NCBI GenBank assembly: GCA_015231955.1
Contig: JADGAN010000001.1
Span: 186,001 to 250,000, forward strand
Length of the DNA stretch: 64,000 nucleotides
Direction of reading: 5' to 3'
Source of the DNA: Oligoflexia bacterium
GTDB lineage: Bacteria > Bdellovibrionota > Bacteriovoracia > Bacteriovoracales > Bacteriovoracaceae
In this document: positions 9,075-41,580 of the stretch, piece by piece
Position numbering within the stretch: position 1 is the stretch's first letter
Layout of the letters: every line of letters begins with the position of its first letter
Translations under genes and position numbers: made by a program
Notes under the pieces: model-generated
What the model saw: only the letters and a program-made list of their open reading frames with translations
Told to the model about the DNA's origin: nothing
Databases searched by the model: none

Positions 9075-10463
9075 TTAGAGGAGAGTATTATCATCGTTCA
9101 TTAGGTTGATCAAATTGCTTTTAAAAGAGGAGCTTTTTTGCACAGAAGACGCAATGCGCCCTAAGTGCTTTTGCAAAGAGAGGTCGTATTTAATAGAGCT
9201 TAGAAGATTAGCATCTAAACGTTTTAACTCCTTAAAAATATCATTCGATAATTCCCAAGTAGCATGGTCTTGATGGCCACTTTTTAGGAAAAGTTTTTTA
9301 GTCTTTTCTAGGAAGTTAAAGGAGAGTGCAATTTTTTTATAGGAATCACTGTCTAGTCCTTTGAGTATAGATAACCAGGAATGGAGATTATCAATGCTTT
9401 GAAATAACAAAGATAAAAAGTAGAGAAGAAATTTTTTGGAGATATCATGGGTACACTTGTGAAAAAGAGGTGTGAAGTATAAGAGAATGGAGTGGTATTC
9501 ATTGCTGCTGATCGCCGCGGTGCTCTTGCAATTTAGAATGAGATGAAAATTGTAAATAGCAGTAGTGGAATAGTGAAACGAGCACTCGTCCTTCGAAAAT
9601 GTGAAGAATTTTAAAAATAAGGTCATCTGCGATTTGAATTGCAAGAAGTCTTTTAAATGAAGATCCCGTTCAAATGAGGTGAGACTATATTGAGGAGATG
9701 CGGTTTTTAATTTATTAGGAAAGAAGATCTGCAGCGCCTTTTCAAAAAAAATTTGTTTTTGAGATAAGTTGAGTATTTTATAAAATTTATCGGATAGATG
9801 AGCAATGTATTTAGGATTATCAAGATTGGATAGTGCAAAGATCACTAAAAAATCTAAGTCGATGTTGATAAATTCATCCTTTATTTTCTTTTTCTTAGAA
9901 GACGATTCTAATAGAAAATCTATAATAATAGAAAATCTATAATCATGTGCATGAGGAGGATAAATTTCTTGAAAAAAAGCACAGTTAGAATCATTTATAA
10001 TGTTTTTTAGTGGAAGAGAAGAGAGAAGAATTTTGTGTACAATGTAAAAAATCTCGAACACTCTTCTTTGCAGGGGAGCAAATTTGGGATTGGACGTTTG
10101 ATTATAAATAGCAATGAATTCATCAAAAAATATTCTTAAAACTTGCTCTATGATCTCTTTGTGAGGGTTGGCCGGGTTGTTATTTAAGGATGAAAAAAAG
10201 AAGAGGCATGCCTTGAGTTTACTTATGCTAAAAATAAGAGAGTATTTTTTTGAAACGCCAGGAATCAGACGCAGAAAAAAGATGGCGTTTATGCGGATTA
10301 GTGGAAAATTAAGAAAAATATTAAGTTCATCTTTGGAAAAGAGGGCACTGGGGTCAATTGTCTCATTTTCAAACCCTGTAATCAGGTTCCATAAGGAAGT
10401 GGGAGAGGATGATAATTTATCGGTGATATTTTTTAGCAGCGTTGAAGTGTTTTGTGCATTCAC
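9075..10463 (-). CDS. Unknown 462-residue protein linked to Hsp70-like gene
   Basis: I do not recognise this protein. It is alpha-helical in character, rich in Leu, Ile, Phe, Lys and Ser, without a signal peptide or clear membrane segments. The start is a GTG that overlaps the stop of the Hsp70-like gene as GTGA, with AAGGTGAG a few bases upstream, so the two are almost certainly translated together. The next gene downstream encodes a J-like protein. Repeated blocks of hydrophobic helices suggest an alpha-solenoid, possibly a client or cofactor adaptor for the Hsp70-like protein; that is inference from context only. Confidence 0.7.
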   Translation of the reverse strand: MNAQNTSTLLKNITDKLSSSPTSLWNLITGFENETIDPSALFSKDELNIFLNFPLIRINAIFFLRLIPGVSKKYSLIFSISKLKACLFFFSSLNNNPANPHKEIIEQVLRIFFDEFIAIYNQTSNPKFAPLQRRVFEIFYIVHKILLSSLPLKNIINDSNCAFFQEIYPPHAHDYRFSIIIDFLLESSSKKKKIKDEFINIDLDFLVIFALSNLDNPKYIAHLSDKFYKILNLSQKQIFFEKALQIFFPNKLKTASPQYSLTSFERDLHLKDFLQFKSQMTLFLKFFTFSKDECSFHYSTTAIYNFHLILNCKSTAAISSNEYHSILLYFTPLFHKCTHDISKKFLLYFLSLLFQSIDNLHSWLSILKGLDSDSYKKIALSFNFLEKTKKLFLKSGHQDHATWELSNDIFKELKRLDANLLSSIKYDLSLQKHLGRIASSVQKSSSFKSNLINLMNDDNTLL

Positions 10464-12304
10464 TGATGCTCACCTTGTTCGTGATCTTTTATAAAATTAT
10501 GAATGGTTATTTCGAGAGAGTCTAATCTGTCGTCGTCTGCGCATTTTAAGGCAGACAAGTAATCGTTTAAGAGTGCGTGTCCTTGCTCCATGATTCCATG
10601 AGAGCAGAGAGGACTATTTTTTTGTAAAAAGAGGAGCAATTGTCTAGAGGCTTCATTGGTTTCAGCAAAAGGGGAATTGTTTAAAGTGAATGGTTCACAC
10701 ACAGTTGCTGAGGAGGGAGCATTTAAATTAAAATGATAATGGTAAATATTATTATCACAGGTATTTTGCGCAATATTGATTTTCACAATGCCATTCAAAT
10801 CGTACTCCATTCTAATGTGAATAGGTGTTCCCGCAGATGATGGCAGCAAATTAACTGAGAAAGATCCAATAAAAAGATTTTCTAGAGTAGATTTGGATTC
10901 TCCTTGATAGATGGCCACCTCGACATGCTCCTGATTATCAAAGCTAGTGTAAAATGTTTTGATATTTCTTGCAGGCAGCCTAGTGCCTCTTAAAATAACT
11001 GGAACAAATGTTTTCGGGTGGCGATTACCAGGGTGATCATTGGTTGTGTTTGCATGTTGTTGTGACTCCGCAAGGATGGCTTCCTTTACTTTTGCGTGTG
11101 CTGTAGATTCAACAAGGGAATCTATTTCACCCATGGCCGCAACTCCCAGTGTGTGCGAAGAGACATCAATGATGATGCTATCTACCTTGAGTCCTGCGCA
11201 AATGGCCGCTTGAATGCTTGCCCCTAAAGCCACAGAAATATCTGGATCAAAATAGTTGCTAATTGTTTTTCCAAAATGGGTGCAAAGCTTTTCCTTTAAC
11301 AGCGGGATACGTGTAGATCCACCGACCAGCAAAAATTTGGAGATTTCATCACAAGTGCAATTTGCCTCTCGAAGTGCTTCGTTGGTTTTCTCAATAGTCG
11401 ATTCGACGTAGGGTGTGATCATAGCTTCAAATTGAGATCTTGTAATCCTGAGTTTTAACTTAATTTCTTTATTTCCAATCTGTATGATTTCATCGATATC
11501 GACTTCAGTTAAATCGGAGAGTTTGATTTTTATATTTTCTGCTAATATTTTTAATTTTGTAATTTGCAGAGAATTGTCAATGGCAATCCCATGATTAATC
11601 TTAATGAAATCGCATAGGAAATGGGCAATTTTAAGATCGAAATCATCGCCTCCTAAGTAATTATTTCCTGTGGAGGCAAGCACTTCATATTGGCCCTGCT
11701 TCACCAGTAAAACCGTTACGTCAAAAGTTCCGCCCCCAAGATCAAAGACGATAATTTTCTCTGCATGCAAGGGAGATAATGGAGGAGATAGCAGGGAATG
11801 TGTTGGCCATGTAGAGGAGAGCGCAAAGTTATAGAGCAAAGAAGCAGCGGTTGGTTCATTAATAATGCGTAAAACATTTAGGCCAACTTCAATGCCAGCT
11901 TGCAAGGTTGCTCTACGTTGAGAATCATTAAAGTAAGCGGGAACGGTTATTACAACATTACTTAATTCGAGATTATGATCTCTTTTTATACACTCTTTAA
12001 GATAGGATAAAATTTTTGAAGAGATTGCAGTGGGATCTAATCTCTCTTCATTTATTGTTATCGAGTAATTGGGATTACCCATCTGCCTTTTAATAGAGAA
12101 GATAGCGTTTGCTGGATTTTTAGAAGTAATATTTTTTGCGTGCTTGCCTATCATCCACTTGCCATTGTCATAGGCCACAATAGAAGGAACTGTTTGTTCT
12201 CCCTCTATAGGAAGTATTTCCGGATGGTAATCACGAAAATAAGATACACAGGTATTGGTAGTGCCAAGATCAATGCCAAAGACGATGCATATAGAATCTT
12301 TCAT
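10460..12304 (-). CDS. DnaK/Hsp70-family chaperone with atypical C-terminus
   Basis: An Hsp70-family ATPase of about 614 residues. The actin-like ATPase domain is intact: FGIDLGTTNTCVSYF at the N-terminus, NVVITVPAYFNDSQRRATL, INEPTAASLLYNFA, IIVFDLGGGTFDVTVL and FLLVGGSTRIPLL. An unusual Ser/Pro/Leu-rich insertion (ALSSTWPTHSLLSPPLSPL) lies between the INEPTAA block and phosphate-2. The substrate-binding domain is recognisable (ILRGTRLPA ... GESKSTLENLFIGSF) but the helical lid is short, so this is not the housekeeping DnaK. It heads the minus-strand operon and is followed by an unknown gene and a degenerate J-like gene. Start at 12304 (MKDSIC) is preferred; ATGs at 12310 and 12319 are in frame. 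Confidence 0.9.
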   Translation of the reverse strand: MKDSICIVFGIDLGTTNTCVSYFRDYHPEILPIEGEQTVPSIVAYDNGKWMIGKHAKNITSKNPANAIFSIKRQMGNPNYSITINEERLDPTAISSKILSYLKECIKRDHNLELSNVVITVPAYFNDSQRRATLQAGIEVGLNVLRIINEPTAASLLYNFALSSTWPTHSLLSPPLSPLHAEKIIVFDLGGGTFDVTVLLVKQGQYEVLASTGNNYLGGDDFDLKIAHFLCDFIKINHGIAIDNSLQITKLKILAENIKIKLSDLTEVDIDEIIQIGNKEIKLKLRITRSQFEAMITPYVESTIEKTNEALREANCTCDEISKFLLVGGSTRIPLLKEKLCTHFGKTISNYFDPDISVALGASIQAAICAGLKVDSIIIDVSSHTLGVAAMGEIDSLVESTAHAKVKEAILAESQQHANTTNDHPGNRHPKTFVPVILRGTRLPARNIKTFYTSFDNQEHVEVAIYQGESKSTLENLFIGSFSVNLLPSSAGTPIHIRMEYDLNGIVKINIAQNTCDNNIYHYHFNLNAPSSATVCEPFTLNNSPFAETNEASRQLLLFLQKNSPLCSHGIMEQGHALLNDYLSALKCADDDRLDSLEITIHNFIKDHEQGEHQ

Positions 12305-23868: not shown

Positions 23869-24236
23869 CTTTTTTATCTTGCCCGTACTCAGATCAAAGT
23901 CCTATCTATGTTGGCACAAAGTAGATCTATTTTGTGAATACAATGCTTTTGGCAGTCAATTGAATTATAAAATACAAGTTCCCGGGTGGATAACAAATAC
24001 TCTCACTTGAGAAATCACTTTCCCAATACCAAATTTATACTCTCAATAAATTCCTAACGTTACAGATCTAATTTTAGCTTTGAACACCTGGTATCAGATT
24101 TGCAGCAAGTAATGCAAATGGAAGTCAAATCTAACAGTAAGATTAACATTAAATATGTAAATTACTGTGTCGTGGAAATGAAAGCATGTATGGGTGTTTT
24201 ATTAGCAATATTACTGTAATTATCAAGGAGTTAAAC
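23869..24236. other. Intergenic region upstream of the peptide cluster
   Basis: A 368-base gap between tRNA-Ser(GCU) and the precursor gene. It contains a sigma-54-like promoter at 24089-24104, and no coding region that I can support. An in-frame start at 24186 upstream of the precursor lacks a ribosome site. AAGGAG immediately precedes the precursor ATG at 24237. No clear terminator for the tRNA transcript was seen. Confidence 0.5.
24089..24104 (+). promoter_or_regulatory. Candidate sigma-54 (-24/-12) promoter
   Basis: TGGTAT-N5-TTGCA, with exactly 10 bases between the invariant GG and GC, matches the sigma-54 consensus TGGCAC-N5-TTGCW at the key positions. Transcription would begin near 24115, leaving about 120 bases of leader before the precursor start. 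A sigma-54-type activator gene exists at 41859, but no link between them can be shown from sequence. Confidence 0.35.
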
Positions 24237-24419
24237 ATGAACTATGAGTGCGCTTTAGATTCTAACATTGCATCAATAAGAGAAGACTTACAGGCAATGT
24301 CTGATTCATTACTTTCTACTTTTTCAATTTTTGACATTTCAGAAGACAATGCTGCGTTTGATTGTGGTAAATGCGGAAAATGCGGCAAAGCTTGTTGTGA
24401 TTACAGCGGCGGACGTTAA
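24237..24419 (+). CDS. Candidate RiPP precursor peptide with CGK-repeat core
   Basis: A 60-residue peptide. Residues 1-42 form a hydrophobic and acidic leader-like segment (IREDLQAMSDSLLSTFSIFD ISEDN region). Residues 43-60 are CGKCGKCGKACCDYSGGR, with five cysteines at 43, 46, 49, 53 and 54. The CGK unit is repeated three times and is also visible as a tandem 9-base pattern in the DNA. AAGGAG is 8 bases upstream of the ATG. It ends 17 bases before a cyclic-peptide-type ABC exporter and just upstream of four radical SAM enzymes, so a ribosomally made, post-translationally modified peptide is the natural reading. A small metal-binding protein is the alternative. The cluster class (thioether, other Cys crosslink) cannot be told from sequence. 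Confidence 0.75.
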   Translation: MNYECALDSNIASIREDLQAMSDSLLSTFSIFDISEDNAAFDCGKCGKCGKACCDYSGGR

Positions 24420-26554: not shown

Positions 26555-27737
26555 TTTTTGGCTGTATATTTCTAGAGCATGTAATCTTCGATGCACTTAT
26601 TGTTATCAAAGGCATCAGCGGGATATGATGACCTTGCATACAGCAAAAATAACAATCGAATGGATTATAAAAAATGCAGCAGAGTTCAATGTCAACACCA
26701 TATCTCTTGATTATTATGGTGGGGAACCACTTTTGAATTTTGATGTTTTCAAATACCTTCTGGAATATTCAACACAACTATCAAAACAAAATGGCATCAC
26801 AGTAGATCATTGCCTGTTTACTAATGGCATGTTGATGGACAGTAAGACCATTGAATTGATAAAGCAATTTGGTGTTACAACTCAAATGAGCATAGATGGA
26901 CCGCCTGAAGTACATGATGCAAATAGGATCAATGTAAATGGCGATGGAAGTTATAAGAAAATTATTGATAACATGAGAAAGAATAGGGCCATAGAGGAGT
27001 TAAGCCCCATTGCTAGTATGGTTGTAACTCCTGAAAACATCAAATCTTTTTACGATAATATAATTTATCTTAGAGATCTGGGTTTCAAGAGGATAATCTA
27101 TCACTTGGCATTAGACAAAGATGTTCAGTGGGGAAAGGAAGAAGCAATACAACTACTGGAAGCGATTGTCAAAATCATCAATGTCATTAACCTGAAATTC
27201 TCCAACGGAGGTATGACTTCAGATCTAATGGTTCAGCCACTAATGGATTTTTCATATTCTTATTATCGTGAATTGCTAAGACAAGAGGATGGTAAAAAAA
27301 ATATCAGCGAAAACAGCACAATTAAATGCGGTGCTGGAAGGAATAACTTTTCTATAAATTATAATGGAGACATCTATCCCTGCTCTAGGATTGTTGATGA
27401 TATTAATATTGATGAAGTTAAAAACAACTACCGCATAGGTAATGTACATTTAGGAATATGGAATAAAGAAAATTTGGAGAAATTTAAGTCGTGGATGCCA
27501 CGCATGTCAAGATCGAGTAAATGTTCCGAGTGTAATCACAGATACTGTTGTTCATACCAATGTTTTGCTTTATCTGAAAACAACCCTGATCACTTAGGTA
27601 ATTCTACCTCCAAAGAATCAATTATCGCATGCACTGTCACAGAGACAATAGCAAACGAAATAAAAACTCGAGTGCCAAAAATACCTATTGTTCCTACTGC
27701 GCCGACCATGGATACAAAGGAGACGCTGGATGCGTAG
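26541..27737 (+). CDS. Radical SAM/SPASM peptide maturase A
   Basis: A 398-residue enzyme. The SAM-binding 4Fe-4S motif is C14-x3-C18-x2-C21 (SRACNLRCTYCYQ), followed by the YYGGEPLLN block, the TNGMLM strand and SIDGPPEVHD. The C-terminal SPASM region has the expected auxiliary cluster cysteines: KCGAGRNNFSINYNGDIYPC, then CSECNHRYCCSYQC, and a late Cys in IIACTVTET. SPASM enzymes of this kind form thioether or carbon-carbon crosslinks, or oxidise residues, in ribosomal peptides. It overlaps the exporter gene upstream and maturase B downstream (8 bases), consistent with one transcript. Confidence 0.92.
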   Translation: MKHFNFWLYISRACNLRCTYCYQRHQRDMMTLHTAKITIEWIIKNAAEFNVNTISLDYYGGEPLLNFDVFKYLLEYSTQLSKQNGITVDHCLFTNGMLMDSKTIELIKQFGVTTQMSIDGPPEVHDANRINVNGDGSYKKIIDNMRKNRAIEELSPIASMVVTPENIKSFYDNIIYLRDLGFKRIIYHLALDKDVQWGKEEAIQLLEAIVKIINVINLKFSNGGMTSDLMVQPLMDFSYSYYRELLRQEDGKKNISENSTIKCGAGRNNFSINYNGDIYPCSRIVDDINIDEVKNNYRIGNVHLGIWNKENLEKFKSWMPRMSRSSKCSECNHRYCCSYQCFALSENNPDHLGNSTSKESIIACTVTETIANEIKTRVPKIPIVPTAPTMDTKETLDA

Positions 27738-28860
27738 AACACTGACTATTATTACTACAAACAAGTGCAATCTTTCGTGTGAATATTGCTTCGTAAAAGA
27801 TAAAAAAGAGCTAGCGTCTATAGATGAGGTTACGCTTAAAAATGGAATCGAATGGTTTATCAATCAATCACTGTTGTCAAAAAATAAATCAGATAGTTTG
27901 AGATTTGTTTTTTTTGGTGGTGAACCACTGATTGAATTTAGCAAGATAATATATTCAGTGAATTTAGCAAAAAGCATTTGCAAAGAGGCCAATATCCAGT
28001 GTGGTTTTCAGATTATCACCAATGGAACACTCTTCAATAAAAACATTGAAAGATTTTGTATAGAAAACGACATTGATATTCAAGTAAGTATTGACGGTGC
28101 CAATGAAGGACACAGAAAACCAAGCACGGAAAAAAACAAAACAACAAAGCATGACCACATCATAAACAACACGAGAAATCTTCTTGAGACGAATTTAAAC
28201 ATTACTGTGAATATGGTTTATTCTGCAAGTAAAGTAGACGATATTTTTAGCAACTTTTCGTTCTTGATAAATCTTGGAATAAAAAACATAAGACTAAGAC
28301 CTTCCATTGGATTCGATGACAAGTGGGACTTAAAAAAACTAAAAGATGAAATGAAAAAAGTTCTGGATGTGGCAATTAATAACTCTCAATTAAACATACA
28401 TCCCTTTAAGTATCTTCTGAATGAGTCTAGACGGATTGAAGATGTTCTTTCTAATGATCCAAGATATAACCTAGATAATGAAGTATATTGTGAGGTTGGA
28501 AAAAACAATCTGTGCTTAAACACGAATGGAGATGTTTATCCTTGTCATCGATTTGTTTTTGACAATGATAGCAATTTGTTTTTATTTGGAAATGTGAATA
28601 GCAATATGTTCTCAGTTGATAAGATAAGAAGCTTTTTATCTTATCGACCACGGCGTGATGGTGGATGCAAAAATTGTGAATATAAATATCTTTGCGATAA
28701 TCAGTGCCTATACGCTTTTTATGAAAAGAATAGAAACCTGAACGATGCTGACACTTGCCTGTGTACTGTAACCAAGGCAGTGCTAAGTCTCATGGTAGAA
28801 GAAGGATTGATTAAAACCAAAAAACAGTTTAACCACACTGCAGAAGGTGCTTGCTTATGA
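27730..28860 (+). CDS. Radical SAM/SPASM peptide maturase B
   Basis: A 376-residue enzyme starting at MRRTLTIITTNKCNLSCEYC with C13-x3-C17-x2-C20. The FFGGEPLIEF and SIDGANEGHR blocks follow. The SPASM segment includes YCEVGKNNLCLNTNGDVYPC and CKNCEYKYLCDNQC, with a final pair in DTCLCTVT. AAGGAG lies about 7 bases before the ATG at 27730; the longer frame to 27688 lies inside maturase A. It is similar in length and layout to A and C, which suggests serial duplication. Shares ATGA with maturase C. Confidence 0.92.
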   Translation: MRRTLTIITTNKCNLSCEYCFVKDKKELASIDEVTLKNGIEWFINQSLLSKNKSDSLRFVFFGGEPLIEFSKIIYSVNLAKSICKEANIQCGFQIITNGTLFNKNIERFCIENDIDIQVSIDGANEGHRKPSTEKNKTTKHDHIINNTRNLLETNLNITVNMVYSASKVDDIFSNFSFLINLGIKNIRLRPSIGFDDKWDLKKLKDEMKKVLDVAINNSQLNIHPFKYLLNESRRIEDVLSNDPRYNLDNEVYCEVGKNNLCLNTNGDVYPCHRFVFDNDSNLFLFGNVNSNMFSVDKIRSFLSYRPRRDGGCKNCEYKYLCDNQCLYAFYEKNRNLNDADTCLCTVTKAVLSLMVEEGLIKTKKQFNHTAEGACL

Positions 28861-29954
28861 ACGATACACTAGGTTTGAACGCACAGTTTTTTATAACAAA
28901 AAACTGCAATTTGAAATGCAGTTATTGTTTTGAATCAACCTCACCTTGTTCGAGAGATACTTTAAATAAAACCGATATGTCCATTGAAACATTCTCGAAG
29001 GCGATAACCTTTATCGCTAGTAAATTCAATAGATCTAGGTTTGACTATATTAATGTTTTTTTCTTGGGAGGTGAAGTTTTACTAAAAGTGAACAACCTCA
29101 TTGAAATGGCCACAATCGTGGATGAAGTTGCTTCGAAATTTAAGATCAAGATGATTAAAACTATCACGACCAATGGAACTCTTCTTAGTAGAAATACTTT
29201 TGACAAATTATGTGAAAGAGAAATTAAGTTTGCAATAAGTTTAGATGGGGAAAAAGAAGAGCATGACTATAACAGAAAGTTGCCAAGTGGAGCAGGTTCT
29301 TATGACCTCATTTGGAGAAACGGCGATGTTCTCAAGGATGCCATTGATAAGAAAATATGCACTTGTGTCCTTATGACAATAAATAAAAAAACGTTGAATA
29401 ATATCTATAAAAACATTGTTCACCTGATAGATAGTGGTTTCACGAATATTAAACTTAATTTTGCAACAGAAGAGATGTCCCCATTGTTGCTAGATGATAA
29501 CTGGAACCATATCTCTAGTTCGCTCAGAGATGCTTTTTGTTATGCAAAGAAGAATAATGTTCATATTTACCCTCTGGATTTAGTCTCTAATTCAATTAAA
29601 AACAAAACAACCTTTAATCAAACAGAGCTTAGGTGTGGAGTTGGAAGTAGTATTATTACAGTGGATAGTGACGGCACTATAGCACCTTGTGCAAAATTTT
29701 TCGACAACAACATTGAACTATTCACAATGGGTAATGCTCTTACTGGAGAATTGAAAAATGAAGTATTTAATTTCTTTACGACACTTCCAAAAAATAAAAA
29801 ATTAAAATGTAACTCATGCGAAGATCAAGGAAACTGTGTAACGTATTGCCCCTCACTTGCTTTGAAAAATAGCAATTTGTTCTGCCCCCCAGAAACTATG
29901 TGTAAAATAAATAAAATAATACACCAATCACTCAATACCATATCTGAGGTTTAA
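28857..29954 (+). CDS. Radical SAM/SPASM peptide maturase C
   Basis: A 365-residue enzyme with C17-x3-C21-x2-C24 (KNCNLKCSYCFES). The family block is FFLGGEVLLKV, so the usual GGEP proline is Val here. SISLDGEKEEHD-type and TTNGTLLS blocks follow. SPASM cysteines lie in RCGVGSSIITVDSDGTIAPC, CNSCEDQGNCVTYC and the end (FCPPETMC). The ATG at 28857 overlaps the maturase B stop as ATGA. It is the third SPASM enzyme in a row, so either each acts on a different residue of the precursor or they act in sequence. Confidence 0.9.
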   Translation: MNDTLGLNAQFFITKNCNLKCSYCFESTSPCSRDTLNKTDMSIETFSKAITFIASKFNRSRFDYINVFFLGGEVLLKVNNLIEMATIVDEVASKFKIKMIKTITTNGTLLSRNTFDKLCEREIKFAISLDGEKEEHDYNRKLPSGAGSYDLIWRNGDVLKDAIDKKICTCVLMTINKKTLNNIYKNIVHLIDSGFTNIKLNFATEEMSPLLLDDNWNHISSSLRDAFCYAKKNNVHIYPLDLVSNSIKNKTTFNQTELRCGVGSSIITVDSDGTIAPCAKFFDNNIELFTMGNALTGELKNEVFNFFTTLPKNKKLKCNSCEDQGNCVTYCPSLALKNSNLFCPPETMCKINKIIHQSLNTISEV

Positions 29955-30173: not shown

Positions 30174-31520
30174 ATGAATGTGTTAGCGGCGACACTGCCA
30201 TCATTGGCAGACAAAGCACTTGTACTTCAAAACTTAAACTATATCTGCAATTACAGCAATGGAAGTGGCATAGATATTGTCGATTATCCCCAGCACGACC
30301 TAGTACAAGTGGCCGCAGTACTAAAAAAAATAAACATTTCAAACCTAATCGTTAAAGATTATGAAAATAAACCATTATGGATACTAGAAAAAGACATATT
30401 AAGTAATAATGTAGATTGTTTTGTGTTCGATTCTACAAGTTTCCAGATAATTGATCATGTAAATGTTGTGCTTAAAACCTATGAAAAGATAAAAAGCATT
30501 AACCCAAAGACAGTAACCATTTTATCAGGTCGTGATCCGAGCTTTTTTGCAAAAGAGATGATTAAAATTACTGATTCTATAGATATCATAATCAAAGGTG
30601 AGATCGAAGAAACACTGAAAGAATTGATTCTTTTTATAAACAAAGACAGTGACCTAAGTTCCATAAAAGAAAGAGATGAATTGAAAAAGATAAATGGAAT
30701 TGTTTTTAAAAAAAACAACGGCGAAGTGGTAGAGACTGGCCCCAGAGAACTTATCGAAAACCTAGACTCGATACCTTTTCCTGCGTATGAATATTTGAAT
30801 TTGAAAAGTAATTCAACTGTTTCTATTTTTAGTGCCAGAGGATGTCCATTTTCTTGCAATTTTTGTTATAAAATGTTTAGAAAGGTTAGAGCACACAGTC
30901 CTCAGTATGTCATAGATTCAATGAGTCACCTCTATAATAAGTTTGGAGTAACTAGTTTTACATTTGATGATGAAATTACAGGAACAAATATTTCATGGCT
31001 GAAAGAGTTCTTTGAACTGTCCACTAAATTAGCATGGAAACCAACATACCGTTGTTATGCCAGAGCTGATTTGATCAATGAAGAGAGAGTTGAGTTGCTA
31101 AAGAAGTCTGGGTGCATACAGATCAGGATGGGAGTTGAGTCTGGTTCTCCCACGATTTTAAAAGAGATGAATAAAAAATTAAATTTAAACAAGGTCGAAG
31201 CAGCGTTTGAATGCATCAAAACACATGGGATCGATACGGTGGCTTTTATTCTATTGGGTTATCCTCCGGAAGATCATCAGACTATCAATGAGACCATAGC
31301 GTTTTTAAAAAAAATAAAACCATCCGTTGTATCTGCAAAAATACTTCAAGTACTTCCAGGAACCAAACTATATTTTGATTTAAAAGGGAAAAACTATCTG
31401 GATGATACATACTATTTTTTCAACAGGGGAAAAGTTATTCCTTCGTCAACGCTTACTTATTTAGAGTTAAATAATTATATGAATCAAATAAACAGGATGT
31501 TCAACAGTAATGGCAATTAG
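30174..31520 (+). CDS. B12-binding-type radical SAM protein
   Basis: A 448-residue enzyme. The N-terminal ~170 residues have the Rossmann-like layout of a cobalamin-binding domain (VAAVLKKINISNLIVKDYEN, DCFVFDSTSFQ, ILSGRDPS, DIIIKGEIEETLKELI) but no DxHxxG, so any cobalamin would bind base-off without His ligation. The radical SAM core has SARGCPFSCNFCYK near residue 222. FDDEITGTN, RCYARADLINEERVELLKKS and MGVESGSPTILKEMNK follow, as in the Elp3/MiaB-like B12 subgroup. Such enzymes often methylate unactivated carbons. AGGAAG precedes the ATG; it overlaps the next gene by 11 bases. Confidence 0.85.
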   Translation: MNVLAATLPSLADKALVLQNLNYICNYSNGSGIDIVDYPQHDLVQVAAVLKKINISNLIVKDYENKPLWILEKDILSNNVDCFVFDSTSFQIIDHVNVVLKTYEKIKSINPKTVTILSGRDPSFFAKEMIKITDSIDIIIKGEIEETLKELILFINKDSDLSSIKERDELKKINGIVFKKNNGEVVETGPRELIENLDSIPFPAYEYLNLKSNSTVSIFSARGCPFSCNFCYKMFRKVRAHSPQYVIDSMSHLYNKFGVTSFTFDDEITGTNISWLKEFFELSTKLAWKPTYRCYARADLINEERVELLKKSGCIQIRMGVESGSPTILKEMNKKLNLNKVEAAFECIKTHGIDTVAFILLGYPPEDHQTINETIAFLKKIKPSVVSAKILQVLPGTKLYFDLKGKNYLDDTYYFFNRGKVIPSSTLTYLELNNYMNQINRMFNSNGN

Positions 31521-33978
31521 TATCAAAGAGTACATTCCTGAATATGTTGAAGATTATATTATTTTTTGGAATAAAGCAGAAAACATTTGTCCAGGAGGGT
31601 ACATCCCGAGTGGTGCTTACTCTAAAGAAGAATATTTTCACAATGACACACATCGGATGCTATTTTGTAGATTTGTAGCATTTGACGATGATCTAATGAT
31701 TGGAAGCGTGGATTTCTTTTTTATAGACGAAAATATTTTAAGCGCTCACTATTTCCATGTACTCCCAGATTATCAAAGACAGCATGTTGGCGTAGAGTTA
31801 TTGTATCATTCATTTCAAAAAATTTTAGATTACAATAAAGAAGGCGGTGCGATTTGGTACTTCAAAACTGATTCATGGGAGTCTAATTTTGCAGCAAGAA
31901 ATATCTTAACCCAAATATTCAAAGGGATTGAATCTACTGTAGGTGAGTATGTCTTGGTCTGGCCCGCAATTTCTGCATTTGAAGGAGGTAGGCGATTTAT
32001 TGATAAGCATAATCTTTGGGGGATCAAGGATCAAATAAATAGTTTGACGCTAGATTGTTATGATGAAGATGTTTATCAATATACCATGAAAAAACAAGAG
32101 GAAAGCCTCTCCATGGAGATAGATCTTTTCCAATCTCCAAAACACTTAGCATTAAAAAATTCTGTGTTAAAACAAGAGATAATCTTAGAAGGGAGTAAAC
32201 AAAAAACTGAAATAAAAAACCATCCTAATGAAAACATTGTATGTGGAAATTTAGAAGTAAAGTTTTGTGCTGAAGACAGGAAGTATGTTTTGTTTTTCAA
32301 AAAAAAACCAATGGTGGTTCAGTATTATGATCAATTAGGGGATAAATTTCTTGATTTTTCCGAGGCCAACTCTAATTTAGAAATAGAAATAGAAATTGAT
32401 TGTGAAAAAATCATAAATAGAATCACCGTTAGCATCTATTATAAAAATATAAATATATACATTACGAAAGAATATCTATTCGATCCTATTGATAATACTT
32501 TCAAGGTCATGTCTTATATTCACGGGAAACATCCATTTCCCCTTTCAATATCAAGAGGGACTTACTGCCTTCTTAAGCAACCAAAGATTGTCATTAATCA
32601 CAAAACTGGCATCTTTGCCCAAGACGTATTCTTCAATCAGTTTCCTGGTGATAGATATTTTGATTTAAGTCCTGATCCATGTGATTATTCTAGAATTTGG
32701 ACTGGTTTTGTTGAAGGTGATGTTCTTGTTCGTTACTCATGCGAAAGTGATTTTGCTGAGAGAATCAAATATGGGCAAACATCTATGCCATCTGTTTATT
32801 TTAAGATGCAAGAAGTGCCTTCCATTAAAAAATTATTTTCGACTGAATTATTTCACATAAGAGATAATTTTAACCCCAATTATCTTTGCACATATTTCAA
32901 TTATCATTCAATAGATAAGCAACTACCCATTTTCAATGGGACAACAGGATATCGCTTTGTAAATCTAGATAATGATTGCTGCTTTAATAATCGACTTAAA
33001 TTTGAAATTTGGTCTATTCGAAAGAAGAAGGAATTATGTGAAGTAAATATCAGAATTGCTGGTGTTAGTTACAGTGAATGTATTTGGATTGAAAATAGAG
33101 AGAAGAGGGTAATATGCATAGATACCAGCAGTCTTCATAGCGGAATACACTGTGCGATAATCGAAATAAAAAACTCTATAGGAATTACAAAAGATCAAAT
33201 AGTACTAGCAAAACCCTACCCAATTATAAATCAATCTAAATCTCAAATCTCATACTCTGTGGAAAATGATAAGTCAGGAGGGTTATCTTCCCTCTTCGTT
33301 AACGGAACCAATGTCTTGAGCGTAGCAAAGCAGAGGCATAATATTTTAAATTACGTAACACCACTCTCTTGGTCTTTGTTAAAAAACAGGTTGTCTGATC
33401 ACCCACACAACAATATTGGTTCTGGTTTATATGAGCAGGAAAACTTTTACGAAAATAGCAAATGTACAAAAAAAAGCCTACCTGTAAAGCAAGAATCAGT
33501 AATGGAAAACAATTTCTCCATACTGAAATATTACTCAATCTCATCTTTGAATCTTTTTGCTTCAATATTTGAAACGAAAGATACTGTTGGTTTTAAATCA
33601 GCAGTATTTAGCACTTTTTTAAACAAAGACTATGTCGATTACTTGGTCATTGTTGGCGATGATGGCAATGATGTTATATTGCCTAAGAGTAATTTCTCCT
33701 ACTTTAAATATTTCAAAGAAGTAGTGAAAATCAAAAATCCAAACAGCACCTCACTTGATCACATCTATTTTCAAGGAGACTGTTCTGAAGTTTTTGTAAG
33801 TTTCTATCCAGAAGAAGGATTTCAAGTTATTATGTATTTGAATAACATTAATATTAAAAAACCAACAAAAGCTGGCGTTATGTTTTTGTTTGACATTCCA
33901 AACGATATAAAAAAAGTACAAAAAGATTTGATTAACAATTTGTTATTCAACGTAACCATGAGTAACTTCAAGGAATAA
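31510..33978 (+). CDS. GNAT acetyltransferase fused to large domain of unknown function
   Basis: An 822-residue protein. Residues 1-155 have a GNAT fold pattern (IKEYIPEYVEDYIIFWNKAE, a central strand MIGSVDFFFID, and YFHVLPDYQRQHVGVELLYH, which resembles the acetyl-CoA loop with its third Gly replaced). The remaining ~600 residues are rich in beta strands and aromatic residues, with no signal peptide or membrane segment and no motif that I recognise. It could acylate the peptide, or the large domain could be a substrate-binding or cyclodehydratase-like module; nothing visible decides this. It overlaps the B12-type radical SAM gene upstream. Confidence 0.7.
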   Translation: MAISIKEYIPEYVEDYIIFWNKAENICPGGYIPSGAYSKEEYFHNDTHRMLFCRFVAFDDDLMIGSVDFFFIDENILSAHYFHVLPDYQRQHVGVELLYHSFQKILDYNKEGGAIWYFKTDSWESNFAARNILTQIFKGIESTVGEYVLVWPAISAFEGGRRFIDKHNLWGIKDQINSLTLDCYDEDVYQYTMKKQEESLSMEIDLFQSPKHLALKNSVLKQEIILEGSKQKTEIKNHPNENIVCGNLEVKFCAEDRKYVLFFKKKPMVVQYYDQLGDKFLDFSEANSNLEIEIEIDCEKIINRITVSIYYKNINIYITKEYLFDPIDNTFKVMSYIHGKHPFPLSISRGTYCLLKQPKIVINHKTGIFAQDVFFNQFPGDRYFDLSPDPCDYSRIWTGFVEGDVLVRYSCESDFAERIKYGQTSMPSVYFKMQEVPSIKKLFSTELFHIRDNFNPNYLCTYFNYHSIDKQLPIFNGTTGYRFVNLDNDCCFNNRLKFEIWSIRKKKELCEVNIRIAGVSYSECIWIENREKRVICIDTSSLHSGIHCAIIEIKNSIGITKDQIVLAKPYPIINQSKSQISYSVENDKSGGLSSLFVNGTNVLSVAKQRHNILNYVTPLSWSLLKNRLSDHPHNNIGSGLYEQENFYENSKCTKKSLPVKQESVMENNFSILKYYSISSLNLFASIFETKDTVGFKSAVFSTFLNKDYVDYLVIVGDDGNDVILPKSNFSYFKYFKEVVKIKNPNSTSLDHIYFQGDCSEVFVSFYPEEGFQVIMYLNNINIKKPTKAGVMFLFDIPNDIKKVQKDLINNLLFNVTMSNFKE

Positions 33979-33984
33979 TTGGAC

Positions 33985-34782
33985 ATGGATATTGTTATAA
34001 AAAAACTTAGACCATTTAAAATTGACCCAGATATTGTCAGATGGACTGTTACTCTTCATGCACTGGAATGTCTTTTTAAGCGCCTCCCCTCCATGCCTAT
34101 GAACGTTCACGGGGGTACATCAATTCTTGATCAATGTTCCAGCATAGATATACATAATGTAACATCATTTAATAAAATTATTAATTCAATATTTACTCAA
34201 ATACAAGGTAATATCCCACAAGATATTATTCTGAATTATTTTGAATTGATTCATTTGTATCCTTTGTTAGAAAGGCAATTTTTTTACTCACCAAAATTTT
34301 TTGATAAAATATTCAGAACTACCCTTTTTGATTTTTCAATTACCAACGAGGTGTTAAGGAGGCACAAAAAGTTTAACCTCAATCAAATAATATTTTTTAT
34401 AACAAGCGGTGACGATGTTCAGTCAATTGATATCCCTGTTTTGAAAAATCACGTGGTAAATTCTGAATTTAGAGTTTTTATCTCCTCAACCATCGACCGC
34501 CATCTTTTCTCTCAATTGTGCGATCTCAATATTGATCTATTGGTGGATATAAATTTCTTTTTAGAAAATATTGATTATTACTCAAGTAACAACAATAAAG
34601 GAATTAGATCTATTGAGTTAATTGGAGACCTTACTGGCAAAAATCAAGATTTGGTTGATAGCATCTTAAATTCCGAACAATACCAGTTGATATTCAGAAA
34701 AATAACGAAAATAAGCGATGAAGATTGTAGTAATAAAACTTATATGCATAATTTTTTCACAAAACTAAAGGGGAAAACATGA
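33985..34782 (+). CDS. Unknown protein in the peptide cluster
   Basis: A 265-residue soluble protein that I do not recognise. It has alternating helix and strand character (VRWTVTLHALECLFKRLP; FELIHLYPLLERQFF; FRVFISSTIDRHLFSQLCD). AAGGA sits 10 bases before the ATG at 33985, which is preferred to the TTG at 33979. It shares ATGA with the following protease gene, so it is translationally coupled to it. Its position after the modifying enzymes leaves tailoring, carrier or immunity roles open. Confidence 0.65.
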   Translation: MDIVIKKLRPFKIDPDIVRWTVTLHALECLFKRLPSMPMNVHGGTSILDQCSSIDIHNVTSFNKIINSIFTQIQGNIPQDIILNYFELIHLYPLLERQFFYSPKFFDKIFRTTLFDFSITNEVLRRHKKFNLNQIIFFITSGDDVQSIDIPVLKNHVVNSEFRVFISSTIDRHLFSQLCDLNIDLLVDINFFLENIDYYSSNNNKGIRSIELIGDLTGKNQDLVDSILNSEQYQLIFRKITKISDEDCSNKTYMHNFFTKLKGKT

Positions 34783-35534
34783 TGATATCCTTGCTGGCTG
34801 CACTGATCACCATAGGGACTTTCTTGCCGACAAGAAGTTTTATCCATTTGGGAATAATTGCTTTGGTAAATTTTTTATTTATTGTTCTTACACTAAAAAA
34901 GCCATCGCTTTCAAAAGTGAGAACATTACTTTTTTTTAACGTGCTGTTTTTGATTATTAAAACTACATTCCTGTTCCTTGATTATGACTATTTTTCAACA
35001 ATTCTTCCTTCGTTGATTTTGCTGATTATATTTTACAAGGCTTTGACAAAGGAAAAGATCTCTTCATTCTTTAAATTTAGCAATCCACTGTCTTTTACTT
35101 TCATCCTTTACACTGTTGTTTCAGCAGCAGGGTTAATATTTTGGTATAAGATTGCAAATCCTACGCTTCCTATGGAAATGGATTTAAAAAGTGCTAGCAT
35201 TTTAAAAATAATTACAATCGGAGCAATGTTTTCATTAATTAATTCATTCTATGAAGAAATAATTTTCCGTGGAATTTATTTGAAGTTTTTAAGCAATGCT
35301 ACTAGTAGCACATTTATTGCAATAACGGTTCAAGCGATTATCTTTGGTTTAATTCACTTCTTGAACGGAGTGCCCTCTGGTTTTATCGGAGTTCTGCTTA
35401 CATTTTTTTATGCACTAATGATGGGGCATCTATATTTAAAAACCAAGAGTCTGGTTCCATGCATAATAGCACATCTACTTTGCGATGGAGTGGTTTACGG
35501 GCTAATCGTCTTCAATAATTTGGGGAAAATATAA
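34779..35534 (+). CDS. CPBP-family intramembrane protease (Abi/CAAX-like)
   Basis: A 251-residue membrane protein with about seven hydrophobic segments. All CPBP active-site motifs are present: FYEEIIFRG (EExxxR) near residue 157, FGLIHF (FxxxH) and AHLLCDG (HxxxD-type). Members are glutamic intramembrane proteases; in bacteriocin clusters they act in leader processing or self-immunity. The exporter here lacks its own peptidase domain, so this is the best visible candidate for leader cleavage. That role is inference. Coupled to the preceding gene by ATGA. Confidence 0.85.
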   Translation: MMISLLAALITIGTFLPTRSFIHLGIIALVNFLFIVLTLKKPSLSKVRTLLFFNVLFLIIKTTFLFLDYDYFSTILPSLILLIIFYKALTKEKISSFFKFSNPLSFTFILYTVVSAAGLIFWYKIANPTLPMEMDLKSASILKIITIGAMFSLINSFYEEIIFRGIYLKFLSNATSSTFIAITVQAIIFGLIHFLNGVPSGFIGVLLTFFYALMMGHLYLKTKSLVPCIIAHLLCDGVVYGLIVFNNLGKI

Positions 35535-35550: not shown

Positions 35551-36195
35551 ATGATAAATAGTAGTGTAAAATATCATGATCAAAATTCAGCAAATTACGA
35601 TAAATCCTATAAAAATCCATACTGGAAGATATATAAGGAAATAACTTGGAATTATATAAAAGACTATCTTCCTCCCACCAAAAAAAGATCATTAATTCTA
35701 GATGCTGGTGGAGGAACAGGTGAATGGGCAATAAGACTTGCAAAACTTGGGTACAATGTTGTTCTTGCAGATGTATCTGAAGGTATGCTTGATGTAGCAG
35801 TAACTAAAATTAAAAAACTTAAATTAGGGAATAAAATTACAGTTATGAATCTTGATATATGCAAAATGCATCTTCTAGATTCAAAGCAATTCAATCTTAG
35901 TCTTGCCGAAGGTGATCCCGTTTCCTATTGTAGCAACCCCAATAAAGCAATTTCTGAACTATCTCGGGTTACCAAGATTGGTGGTTATGTAACCGTCTCA
36001 GTCGATAATAAACTCAGATGGGTTTCGGGGCTAATTAAAAATGGCCACCTAAAAGAAGCTCAGATTTCCTTAAAAAGCGGTATTGGGTATATGCGAGCAG
36101 GACATGATGATCAATTTCCTGCTCATATGTTTACAATCGAAGAACTGTCGGTTCTGTCGCACGATCCTCCATTGATTTTATTTAACATCGATTAA
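35551..36195 (+). pseudogene. Class I SAM-dependent methyltransferase, 3' end cut by IS
   Basis: AAGGAAGGA precedes the ATG. The N-terminal part is a standard Rossmann methyltransferase: ILDAGGGTGEWAIRLAKLGY (motif I), NVVLADVSEGMLDVA (motif II), LSLAEGDPVSYCSN, and the late helix ISELSRVTKIGGYVTVSVDN. The IS left end at 36150 falls after residue 199 in HMFTIEELSV, a block that normally continues for a further 30-60 residues. The last ~15 codons are IS-derived and end at 36195. The catalytic fold may be incomplete. In an intact ancestor it would have been the last gene of the peptide cluster and a candidate tailoring enzyme. Confidence 0.75.
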
Positions 36196-36979
36196 TGCCG
36201 ATGAAGATAAAGCGAAATTGTTTTTGTAATTTCAGGGATGGCTTGATGGCTCATATGAATCGATCACCTTTCTCCAATGATATTATTTTGCTTGCGATAC
36301 ACTGGTATCTTCGATATGCACTCAGCTATCGCGACCTAGAGGAAATTTTAGAAGAGCGCGGAATTGAGGTGGATCACTCCACCATCAATCGGTGGGTAAA
36401 AAGATACACTCCTGATATCGAGAAAAATTTCAGAAAAAGAAAAAGACCCACTGGCGGATCATGGCGAATGGATGAAACCTATGTCAAAGTTAAAGGCGTT
36501 TGGAAATATCTTTATCGAGCTGTAGACAAGGAAGGCAACACCATTGATTTCCTTTTGACAAGCAAGAGAGATACTGCTGCTGCTCATAGATTTTTCAAGA
36601 AGGCTATCAATAACAACGGCGTCCCAGATAAAATTAACATTGACAAGAGTGGTGCCAATAAGGCCGGCATACAAACCTATAATGAAAGGAATGGGTTCAA
36701 TATTGAAATAAGAGAGTGCAAATACCTCAATAACATTGTCGAGCAAGATCATCGATTCATAAAAAAAATTATACGGCCTATGCTTGGTTTCAAAAATTTC
36801 AATTATGCACGAATAACCTTGGCCGGAATTGAAATAGTAAGGATGATAAAGAAGGGACAGCTGTGCCTGGAAAACAGTGCAAATCTTACTGTTGCTGAGC
36901 AATTTTATTCATTGGCTTTTTAACACGGAACTGCCCCTATGGGGGAATCTGATCAAAATTTCAAGGATGCGACAGTACC
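36150..36979 (+). mobile_element. IS6-family insertion sequence, 830 bases
   Basis: The ends carry inverted repeats GGTTCTGTCGCA (36150-36161) and GGTACTGTCGCA (complement of 36968-36979), one mismatch in 12. Size and single transposase match the IS6 family. The flanking 8-mers, GAACTGTC on the left and TCATACAG on the right, are not identical, so no target duplication is seen. Together with truncated genes on both sides this points to an IS-mediated deletion or rearrangement. Confidence 0.88.
36195..36923 (+). CDS. IS6-family DDE transposase
   Basis: A 242-residue transposase with the family layout: SNDIILLAIHWYLRYALSYR DLEEIL, the HTH block VDHSTINRWVKRYTP, and the DDE residues in RMDETYVKVKG, NIDKSGAN and IVEQDHRFIKK. 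IIRPMLGFKNF and the terminal IEIVRMIKKGQ block complete the match. It appears full length, so the element may be active. The start is uncertain: ATGs at 36195, 36246 and 36255 are in frame, and family members usually begin close to the NRSPFSNDIIL block. Confidence 0.93.
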   Translation: MPMKIKRNCFCNFRDGLMAHMNRSPFSNDIILLAIHWYLRYALSYRDLEEILEERGIEVDHSTINRWVKRYTPDIEKNFRKRKRPTGGSWRMDETYVKVKGVWKYLYRAVDKEGNTIDFLLTSKRDTAAAHRFFKKAINNNGVPDKINIDKSGANKAGIQTYNERNGFNIEIRECKYLNNIVEQDHRFIKKIIRPMLGFKNFNYARITLAGIEIVRMIKKGQLCLENSANLTVAEQFYSLAF

Positions 36980-38255: not shown

Positions 38256-38969
38256 ATGTCTAGAATTAATGTTCAGAGTGTAACAAAAAAAATCATCGTG
38301 ATGATTTTTTTATTTATGTTTTGTATGATAAGTTTAGTATCAACTCTCTTTGCCACTGAAGATCTCGCTTGCTCTTCTCCTAATATGTCACTTAAATCGT
38401 GCTTACTTGTTCTTCAGAGGGAACTCGCTGATAGTAAACGGAAAATTTTAGAACTAGAACAATCTCGGGCCGCTCAACAAGAGCTCTCCGCCTTGAAAAC
38501 TTTTACAATTGGAGGCGACTCTCAATACTATTACCCTGTATGGTTTGCTGATAACTGTTGGCATGAGGGGGAAACAAAGTTAGTCATCTCTAGGGCCAGT
38601 ATCCACACCAATGGAGAATGGGCCGGAAGTGTGAATATCCGCTTTGTTTATCACTCTTTTGCTTGTGGTCACGGCTCATCCTTTTTAGATGCTGCTATTG
38701 AATATACCAATGCTGGTACTAGTGCTAATCGTGGTCCCTTTATTGCTAACTTTGATTCTACCAATGGTTGCAGTGCAGGCGGAATTGTTGTGTGGTTAAG
38801 AGGAGGTGGGTTGACCTATAATTATAAATCAAGTTGTACTGTGTCTCCAGTTTTTTCTACGACTGAACCGATTACCATCCCTGGAAGCAATGTCCTCAGG
38901 GAGAAAACCGATAAAATAGATGCAAAAGTAACAAGTATTATGGGAATGGGTTTACAACACATACATTAA
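38256..38969 (+). CDS. Secreted coiled-coil fibre-like protein 1
   Basis: A 237-residue exported protein. A signal peptide (basic start, hydrophobic core to about residue 32) is followed by the module LACSSPNMSLKSCLLVLQRE, with Cys-x9-Cys, running into a heptad-like coiled coil (LADSKRKILELEQSRAAQQE). The C-terminal domain begins FTIGGDSQYYYPVWF and is beta-rich with paired cysteines. It ends with GLQHIH. AGGAG precedes the ATG. The same N-terminal module occurs in the next three genes with different C-terminal domains, which suggests oligomeric fibres with interchangeable tips. Function is inferred from architecture. Confidence 0.7.
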   Translation: MSRINVQSVTKKIIVMIFLFMFCMISLVSTLFATEDLACSSPNMSLKSCLLVLQRELADSKRKILELEQSRAAQQELSALKTFTIGGDSQYYYPVWFADNCWHEGETKLVISRASIHTNGEWAGSVNIRFVYHSFACGHGSSFLDAAIEYTNAGTSANRGPFIANFDSTNGCSAGGIVVWLRGGGLTYNYKSSCTVSPVFSTTEPITIPGSNVLREKTDKIDAKVTSIMGMGLQHIH

Positions 38970-38986
38970 AAAAAAATGGAGTTTCA

Positions 38987-39895
38987 ATGAATCTTTCACG
39001 GACACAAGCAAAAACAAAAATAATGTTAATAGGGCCTTCACTCCTCTTGATAGCAACATTAATGATCCCTTTCTTGTTCTCGTTCTCGGCCAAGGCCGTT
39101 GATCCTGTCTCTTGCGATCAACCAGGAATGAGTTTGAAACAATGTTTAGCTTCTCTACAAAGAACGATCAATGCTTTAGTTGTCGAGAACACCGCCTTAA
39201 CTAATCGTCTTAACGATAAGGTCCCCTCTCTCCCCAATATTTGGAAAAATAGTAAGTTTTTAGTATTAGCTGATCCCACTGGAACCCCATCAACAACGAA
39301 TAATCTCAAAGATTGGGTTCCTCATACTCATGGAGGGGCCATTGTCACTTATGAACCTGTATCAAAATATACAAGTGGTTTCGTGGGTATCTATGCTGAA
39401 AAAACAAGTCCCTCCTATTACGATAGAGCGAATGGTTTTCAATCGGCAACAGAAAAAAACCCTTTCTGGTATGGCGCTTGGGATACAGGTCCAAGAATTT
39501 CAAGAGAAGGGTGGAACAACTCCAGTTTTGATATCCTAAAACTTCACGTCTCTGCCGGTTTAAATGCTGGAAGAATCAATCAATCTCAATCAAAGACGAT
39601 TCACTCTCCAACAAGCAAATATGTTTTCAGTATGTATGTTAAGTTTTTACAAGGCAGTTCCTTTGGTGTCAGCCAAGATGTTTTGAATACTGCTGCTATT
39701 ATTTCTCGAACCGAATGTGACAAAAGTCCTCAAGGGTGGTGTCTCTTTAAAGGGGAGTTTTATGGATATTCCACTGATAATCCTTACCTCGGTTTTGGAA
39801 AACCTTTAGGAGATACCAGTGAGCTTGAAGTTTTAGTGGCCCTTCCTTACATCTATTCTAATGAAGCTCTTTGGGCCGCTCATCCTGGTGAGTAA
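38987..39895 (+). CDS. Secreted coiled-coil fibre-like protein 2
   Basis: A 302-residue exported protein. The signal peptide ends near FSAKAVD. The shared module VSCDQPGMSLKQCLASLQRT (Cys-x9-Cys) leads into INALVVENTALTNRLNDK, a short coiled coil. The C-terminal ~230 residues are unrelated to protein 1 and rich in aromatic residues and Gly (NPFWYGAWDTGPRISREGW), as in carbohydrate-binding beta-sandwich folds; no specific family is recognised. GGAG lies 8 bases before the ATG. It follows protein 1 after 17 bases. Confidence 0.7.
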   Translation: MNLSRTQAKTKIMLIGPSLLLIATLMIPFLFSFSAKAVDPVSCDQPGMSLKQCLASLQRTINALVVENTALTNRLNDKVPSLPNIWKNSKFLVLADPTGTPSTTNNLKDWVPHTHGGAIVTYEPVSKYTSGFVGIYAEKTSPSYYDRANGFQSATEKNPFWYGAWDTGPRISREGWNNSSFDILKLHVSAGLNAGRINQSQSKTIHSPTSKYVFSMYVKFLQGSSFGVSQDVLNTAAIISRTECDKSPQGWCLFKGEFYGYSTDNPYLGFGKPLGDTSELEVLVALPYIYSNEALWAAHPGE

Positions 39896-39959
39896 GCACA
39901 AAAAGAAGAGGTCAAAGTAATAGCAATAGTAACAGTATTCTTATCTCTAGGATAAAAAA

Positions 39960-40628
39960 ATGACACGTTTAGCATTGATTGTTGGCTTGATTTTAATGGT
40001 GGTGGCACCTTCTTTATCTTTTAGTTCTGAAACCGATGATCTTTGTCCCATCGGTGCTCCTATTAGTGTCTGTGTAAAACAGTTAAGGGCCAAAATTGTA
40101 GAGCTTGATCAGGCCGTTAAAGAAATCAAAAAACCGACGACGCCTGTGGTGGTTGCCGATCCCAATGCTCTTGTCTATCGACGCCTTAGTGTTTTTAGCT
40201 TTATCCATCCTGCTGAAGGTTATCCTGCAGGATCGGAATGGAAAACAGCTTGGTACCATCTTTTTACTCCCGTTAAAAATAAGGGCCAAGAGATGTTCCG
40301 TTATGATTTGCATGGTTATTCTTACGCCGAAGGGATGCCTTTAGATTTGACCTGGGTGGGTTACTACTATTTCCATTATGACGATTTTAATCAGCAACAT
40401 GCTTTAGATCGCAGTAATATGATCTCTAAACAACCCGATTTTAAAGTATCCATGTATACGACAAAGAAGGGGTTTTTAGTTTTAAAGTTTGGCCCTATCA
40501 GCAGGTACCATAATAGCTTTACTTTGGATTACCAATCAGGTTCGAATGGCCCTCGGGAGACCGATCATTCAGCTCAAAACTATCGGGCCGTGATTACGGA
40601 TGGGGATGTTGAACTTAAAGACGAATAG
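39960..40628 (+). CDS. Secreted coiled-coil fibre-like protein 3
   Basis: A 222-residue exported protein with signal peptide (residues 1-22). A shorter version of the shared module, DLCPIGAPISVCVKQLRAKI (Cys-x8-Cys), continues into VELDQAVKEIKK. The C-terminal domain (LSVFSFIHPAEG, YYYFHYDDF, GFLVLKFGPISRYHN) has a beta-strand pattern with many aromatics, like the receptor-binding ends of fibre proteins; this resemblance is only by composition. AGGA precedes the ATG by eight bases. Confidence 0.68.
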   Translation: MTRLALIVGLILMVVAPSLSFSSETDDLCPIGAPISVCVKQLRAKIVELDQAVKEIKKPTTPVVVADPNALVYRRLSVFSFIHPAEGYPAGSEWKTAWYHLFTPVKNKGQEMFRYDLHGYSYAEGMPLDLTWVGYYYFHYDDFNQQHALDRSNMISKQPDFKVSMYTTKKGFLVLKFGPISRYHNSFTLDYQSGSNGPRETDHSAQNYRAVITDGDVELKDE

Positions 40629-40674
40629 TTCCTGAAATTTAATTGAGTCAATCATGACGGAGGATTTATTTCAT

Positions 40675-41580
40675 ATGCATTATCAACAAAGAAGACTCTT
40701 ATTCATAAGTCTGTTTTTATTAACTCTTTTTATCAACTTTCTTTCTTTTCCACTGCAAGTGCAAGCGGGTGAACTCTCTTGTAGGGGGTTGCCACTTGTC
40801 GATTGTATTAACAGATTAATCGATCAGGTCAATCAGCAAGATCATTTATTACGAGTGGCCACTCAAAGTGATCTGATGGAACAAGGACTGCTCTATTTTC
40901 CTTTTGATAACAATCTTAACGATGCTGGGCGATTTCACTTTTTAGCAAGAAAAACTTCTGAAACGATGAAAGAGACTTTTACAAACGATCGCAAGGGGCA
41001 GACCTACAAAGCACTTCTTTTCTCATCGGCAGAACAGAGTTGTTTGGAATTAACCTCAACAGAGAAAAGTAATGCCAATCTTCATGGATCGTTTACGCTC
41101 GGGGCCTGGGTGAAGGTTTCTCCTGATGCCGATTTTTCATCAGGCGGAAGCATGATTGTGGCCAAACACTATACTTGTGGGCAACGATCTTTTGATTTAT
41201 CGTTTGCTCATGGATATAAGACCAAAGTAAGGTTTACTCTTTATAATGCTTCCGATTCGGCACCTCCACCCTCTTATGTCAGTGGTGAACATTATATTCA
41301 TTTTGATTTTCCCGCCGATGGAGGATGGCATCTTGTTATTGGCAGTTATGACTATCTTTCTGGTAAAATGATGCTCTTCCTTGATGGAGAACTGAAGCAG
41401 GATGCCTCTATCGGAGCAGTTGAAATCAAGCAAACAGAGCAAACGATCACCATCGGCTGTTACCATAATTCTTCTAGCTCTGTTAGCTTTAGAGGGTATT
41501 TTAATGGAGGCATTGATGATGTTTTTGTTTTAGATCGTGCAGTCTCTGAAAGTTGGGCCAAAGTGATGTCTCTTCTCTGA
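40675..41580 (+). CDS. Secreted LamG-like (concanavalin-fold) protein 4
   Basis: A 301-residue exported protein. After the signal peptide (ends near VQAGE) comes a module LSCRGLPLVDCINRLIDQV (Cys-x7-Cys) and short coiled coil. Residues from about 85 form a LamG/concanavalin-like domain: GLLYFPFDNNLNDAG, GSFTLGAWVKVSPDADF, GGWHLVIGSYDYLSGKMMLF and YFNGGIDDVFVLDRAVSE are typical strand blocks. Such domains bind glycans or proteins. Start at 40675 is preferred because GGAGG is 11 bases upstream; an ATG at 40654 precedes that site. Last of the four-gene series. Confidence 0.78.
   Translation: MHYQQRRLLFISLFLLTLFINFLSFPLQVQAGELSCRGLPLVDCINRLIDQVNQQDHLLRVATQSDLMEQGLLYFPFDNNLNDAGRFHFLARKTSETMKETFTNDRKGQTYKALLFSSAEQSCLELTSTEKSNANLHGSFTLGAWVKVSPDADFSSGGSMIVAKHYTCGQRSFDLSFAHGYKTKVRFTLYNASDSAPPPSYVSGEHYIHFDFPADGGWHLVIGSYDYLSGKMMLFLDGELKQDASIGAVEIKQTEQTITIGCYHNSSSSVSFRGYFNGGIDDVFVLDRAVSESWAKVMSLL

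Follow-up and report, generated by a model that had tools for sequence, protein, structure and literature searches.

Organization of the operon and its surroundings

The 64-kb stretch of DNA analyzed here (the window) contains a small ORF encoding a putative 60-aa precursor peptide, whose gene opens a compact same-strand operon of eleven genes extending to position 36195 (Table 1). Gene order and overlaps suggest that these genes form one transcription unit headed by the small ORF, whose stop codon lies 17 bases from the exporter gene. The ORF appears credible based on its start signal and operon position: an AAGGAG ribosome-binding site is present within TAATTATCAAGGAGTTAAAC, 5' of the ATG at 24237, and this codon was therefore taken as the start rather than an earlier ATG (24186) from which the frame is also open.

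The precursor gene is preceded by two tRNA-Ser genes and a gap of ~370 bases. No tRNA-Ser attachment repeat of at least 15 bases was detected within the window, and integration of an island is thus not supported. A scan for an upstream sigma-70 promoter and for a terminator found neither. A sigma-54-like sequence (TGGTATCAGATTTGCA; window positions 24089-24104), located ~130 bases upstream of the precursor, keeps the GG and GC elements with two mismatches; the window includes 53 sigma-54-like matches versus 29 expected, and a sigma-54 response regulator is encoded at 41859. At the other end of the operon, the methyltransferase abuts the transposase and is probably truncated at its C terminus. 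Farther downstream, the region 38256-41580 contains four secreted-looking ORFs in tandem. Their mature N termini have in common two cysteines spaced approximately 8 to 9 residues from each other and, after these, a short helical stretch, and their C-terminal parts are unrelated; one of the four was searched against Pfam and had no match.

Table 1. Features of the operon and its 3' boundary (window coordinates)
Feature	Position	Strand	Remarks
Precursor ORF, 60 aa	24237..24419	+	ATG 24237; stop 24417-24419
Precursor leader, residues 1-42	24237..24362	+	Net charge -8; RBS AAGGAG upstream
Precursor core, CGKCGKCGKACCDYSGGR and stop	24363..24419	+	Cys pattern C-x2-C-x2-C-x3-C-C-D; net charge +3
Cyclic-peptide export ABC transporter, 705 aa	24437..26554	+	TIGR01194, 318.9 bits (cut-off, 286.2)
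Radical SAM/SPASM enzyme S1, 398 aa	26541..27737	+	CNLRCTYC; SPASM cysteines present
Radical SAM/SPASM enzyme S2, 376 aa from likely ATG	27730..28860	+	CNLSCEYC; TTG 27688 possible start
Radical SAM/SPASM enzyme S3, 365 aa from likely ATG	28857..29954	+	CNLKCSYC; TTG 28851 possible start
Cysteine-free protein, 71 aa	29956..30171	+	No family
B12-type radical SAM enzyme, 448 aa	30174..31520	+	CPFSCNFC; ApyD/BchE-like at superfamily level
822-aa protein (ORF8)	31510..33978	+	N-terminal GNAT acetyltransferase domain; about 650 aa without known family
267-aa protein (ORF9)	33979..34782	+	Family unknown
CPBP/Rce1-like intramembrane protease	34779..35534	+	EExxxR motif present
SAM methyltransferase	35551..36195	+	Catalytic domain present; C terminus abuts transposase
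IS6/IS240-type transposase	36195..36923	+	Marks operon 3' end; outside the pathway

Radical SAM enzymes and accompanying proteins

The CxxxCxxC motif is kept in all four radical SAM proteins of the operon, and the auxiliary-cluster (SPASM) cysteines are retained in S1, S2, and S3. The best NCBIfam match for each of the three SPASM enzymes is NF047865 (E values from 9e-50 to 4e-57), the PapB ranthipeptide maturase model. Their scores (194, 183, and 170 bits) lie below the 340-bit cut-off of this model, and S1 to S3 reach no other maturase cut-off, including that of TIGR03974, among the matches listed. Within their own genome, they are the three best of 18 NF047865 matches. The best solved relative of S1 is 5wgg (E value of 1e-32), CteB, the SCIFF maturase of thermocellin. 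These similarities suggest that S1 to S3 act like enzymes of the PapB/CteB group but do not place them in the PapB family itself.

The mutual identity of S1 to S3 is 24 to 27%, which indicates divergent paralogues rather than copies matched to the repeats of the precursor; the distances among them are about the same as those separating them from enzymes found in a Sedimentisphaerales bacterium and in Anaerococcus. A tree of 16 SPASM proteins paired S1 with S2 (88/89) and left the remaining branches unresolved. The approximately 18 SPASM-type matches in the genome include groups of several on two contigs (C35 and C40; L041 and L043), which are unlike RiPP clusters, and a scan of the other SPASM loci of this genome for small Cys-rich ORFs revealed no further cluster that convincingly resembled this one.

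The ATPase motifs of the exporter are intact, and its Pfam matches include no C39 peptidase domain. For the 448-aa radical SAM enzyme, the B12-binding Pfam match falls below its cut-off. The 71-aa protein is a possible accessory protein, and the CPBP protein is a candidate leader peptidase or immunity protein. No relatives of the 822-aa GNAT-fusion protein (290 other phylum genomes and plasmids) or of the 267-aa protein (368 other phylum genomes and plasmids) were found, and single-sequence structure predictions for these two proteins were unusable (pLDDT of 31 and 47, respectively). Leader-recognition (PqqD/RRE-like) domains, which are common but not universal in RiPP clusters, were not matched in the operon proteins by Pfam or NCBIfam.

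Precursor peptide, cysteine spacing, and search for relatives

The precursor translates as MNYECALDSNIASIREDLQAMSDSLLSTFSIFDISEDNAAFD followed by CGKCGKCGKACCDYSGGR, with the leader/core border probably located after about residue 42. Re-reading of the ORF reproduced the sequence and coordinates of the core given in the original prediction, i.e., 57 bases encoding residues 43 to 60 and the stop codon. The three CGK units described there as near-identical 9-base repeats are encoded by TGTGGTAAA, TGCGGAAAA, and TGCGGCAAA, each pair of which has 7 to 8 of the 9 bases in common and differs solely at silent third positions. The acidity of the leader, which had been proposed to be acidic and helical, was borne out (Table 1). 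Additional features that had not been pointed out previously are the five core cysteines (C43, C46, C49, C53, and C54) together with C5 of the leader, the presence of a single Asp (D55) after a core cysteine, and an exact match to ferredoxin spacing. The tripeptide FDC is found at the leader/core border.

The core spacing is exactly C-x2-C-x2-C-x3-C, which is the [4Fe-4S] spacing of bacterial ferredoxins. This pattern occurs once in the six frames of the window, compared with a mean of 0.017 in Markov-randomized windows, and the triple C-x-y repeat also occurs once, compared with a mean of 0; both patterns are thus unlikely to arise by chance, although they were picked post hoc, after inspection, and the counts reflect rarity rather than function. 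A Pfam search of the precursor at an E value of 0.1 returned no family and no Fer4 match. Neither a metallothionein family match nor a stand-alone conserved precursor gene was found in Pfam, NCBIfam, and 368 other phylum genomes.

The precursor is present as one copy in its own genome. No relatives were found in 57 related genomes, in plasmids, or in viral contigs, and none beyond chance matches were found in 368 other phylum genomes. Homologs outside a radical SAM context, which the original prediction had named as evidence against a RiPP, were likewise not seen, since no homolog was detected in any context. The weak matches that we inspected were rejected as a probable B12-dependent ribonucleotide reductase (identified by eye from its sequence), CxxCxxC iron-sulfur proteins, or interrupted frames. 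A search for CGKCGKCGK in viral contigs yielded 11 short frames, none of which was observed to match the precursor elsewhere. Outside the cluster, relatives of S1, S2, and the 822- and 267-aa proteins were either absent or only 24 to 29% identical. Two radical SAM matches were located on Paraclostridium sordellii plasmids, and a contig scan with S2, which needs exact short peptides and may miss distant relatives, recovered two distant enzymes. With no relative of the precursor, the 822-aa protein, or the 267-aa protein in the searched set, this gene set is an orphan within the genomes, plasmids, and viral contigs searched.

Proposed product and alternative interpretations

The locus combines a short precursor gene encoding a leader and a C-terminal core with adjoining genes for modifying enzymes, the arrangement by which RiPPs are recognized, and the original prediction of a RiPP precursor beside three SPASM enzymes agrees with the three intact SPASM genes of the operon. 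We consider it probable, judging from sequence, that the operon produces a radical-SAM-modified RiPP with a ranthipeptide- or sactipeptide-like cross-linked core, which would then be cleaved and exported.

From the gene order, enzyme motifs, and exporter family, we infer the following pathway. The acidic leader (about residues 1 to 42) would be recognized by the maturation enzymes, and the three divergent PapB/CteB-like SPASM enzymes are predicted to install thioether links between core cysteines and non-cysteine carbons. PapB accepts Cys-Xn-Asp motifs for n of 0 to 6 and does not accept motifs with the two residues transposed (PMC9413430); C54-D55, C53-D55, and C49-D55 are therefore admissible, and one of these three cysteines may be joined to Asp55 by such chemistry. 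As D55 is the only Asp following a core cysteine, PapB-type chemistry could explain at most one cross-link, and the core does not contain the series of Cys-X3-Asp/Glu motifs of ranthipeptides. The other core cysteines may be linked to other carbons, such as those of Gly, Lys, or Ala in a sactipeptide-like manner, or stay free, which leaves room for metal binding. The B12-type radical SAM enzyme would add a further change such as C-methylation, whereas the GNAT protein and the methyltransferase may cap ends or side chains. The leader would be removed by a protease, possibly the CPBP protein, and the TIGR01194 exporter would send out the cyclized peptide, whose role is probably antagonistic or signaling. 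This interpretation is weakened by the absence of homologs, by maturase scores below the cut-offs, and by the lack of a recognizable domain for leader recognition.

The exact ferredoxin spacing fits metal-binding free thiols as well as cross-links, making a metal- or cluster-binding peptide a serious rival, although we regard it as rather unlikely. According to this alternative, the mature peptide would keep its thiols and bind a metal or a [4Fe-4S] cluster via C43, C46, C49, and C53 (or C54), and the radical SAM enzymes would modify other positions or would be served by the peptide as an electron or cluster carrier. The spacing, with its rarity in randomized windows, makes this option stronger than the original prediction had stated. 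Published maquette work states that cluster formation tolerates no change in Cys spacing, whereas every non-ligand position may be Gly (PMC10946529); in the window peptide, these positions are Gly-Lys. However, the cyclic-peptide exporter and the intramembrane protease suggest export, upon which a solvent-exposed cluster would be fragile, and the precursor has no Pro, no second ferredoxin half, and no ferredoxin family match. A combination of the two readings, in which several radical SAM enzymes shape the peptide into an exported ferredoxin-like mini-cofactor, with some cysteines locked in thioethers and the rest holding iron-sulfur or another metal, seems to us quite unlikely.

The original prediction had also proposed that each of the three SPASM enzymes uses one of the repeated cysteines, so that each would cross-link one CGK unit and the repeat number would follow the enzyme number. 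The coincidence of three units and three enzymes fits this idea, which we nevertheless find improbable: the core includes five cysteines, the enzymes are only 24 to 27% identical although the CGK units are identical, a single PapB makes six links (PMC9413430), and TrnC and TrnD work as a joint complex (PMC12093266). It is similarly doubtful that the small ORF is not a substrate or that the operon is decaying and makes no product, an idea in line with the IS6-like transposase adjoining the methyltransferase, the missing sigma-70-like promoter, and the absence of relatives from everything searched, but opposed by the open frames of all genes between and including those of the precursor and the CPBP protein, the motifs conserved wherever the family is known, the good ribosome-binding site, and the repeat units differing only silently.

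Several known systems come closest to this operon and its peptide. As in the freyrasin (PapA-PapB) ranthipeptides, a Cys-rich core accompanies SPASM enzymes that match NF047865 best, and the Cys-Xn-Asp motifs accepted by PapB are represented; however, the operon enzymes are far below the family cut-off and number three rather than one. The SCIFF/CteB system (thermocellin) provides the closest solved relative of S1 and has a Cys-rich precursor, but the window precursor differs in length and Cys pattern and the TIGR03974 cut-off is not reached. Thuricin CD likewise depends on several radical SAM/SPASM enzymes per pathway, with TrnC and TrnD forming a complex (PMC12093266), but it uses two enzymes and two precursors, whereas the operon has a single precursor with three SPASM enzymes plus a B12-type enzyme. 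Ferredoxin [4Fe-4S] loops and maquettes share the CxxCxxC motif, a nearby fourth Cys, and Gly-rich filling, whereas the window peptide has no ferredoxin family match and is encoded alongside genes for peptide maturation and export. For an 18-residue core, a set of three divergent SPASM enzymes plus one B12-type radical SAM enzyme is an unusual enzyme load. Because Asp/Glu acceptors are too scarce in the core for the known chemistry of PapB, it is plausible that the product has new thioether sites or binds a metal. The operon offers a compact system for studying the allocation of the cysteines of a single peptide among several radical SAM enzymes and the question of whether an iron-sulfur cluster can be carried by a RiPP.

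Two Cys-rich ORFs were observed next to related enzymes in other organisms. On a Sedimentisphaerales contig (L019), a SPASM gene and a 324-residue ORF overlap (9911-11086 and 11025-11999); the latter contains about sixteen [FY]-x-C units (FDC, FKC, FEC, and YDC), the first of which is also found in the window precursor, and is likely a repetitive radical SAM substrate. On Anaerococcus prevotii plasmid pAPRE01 (L071:5476-5628), a 50-residue Cys-rich hypothetical ORF (CMWCD...CIFCD) lies just upstream of the gene for a related radical SAM enzyme, in the vicinity of a class III lanthipeptide cluster.
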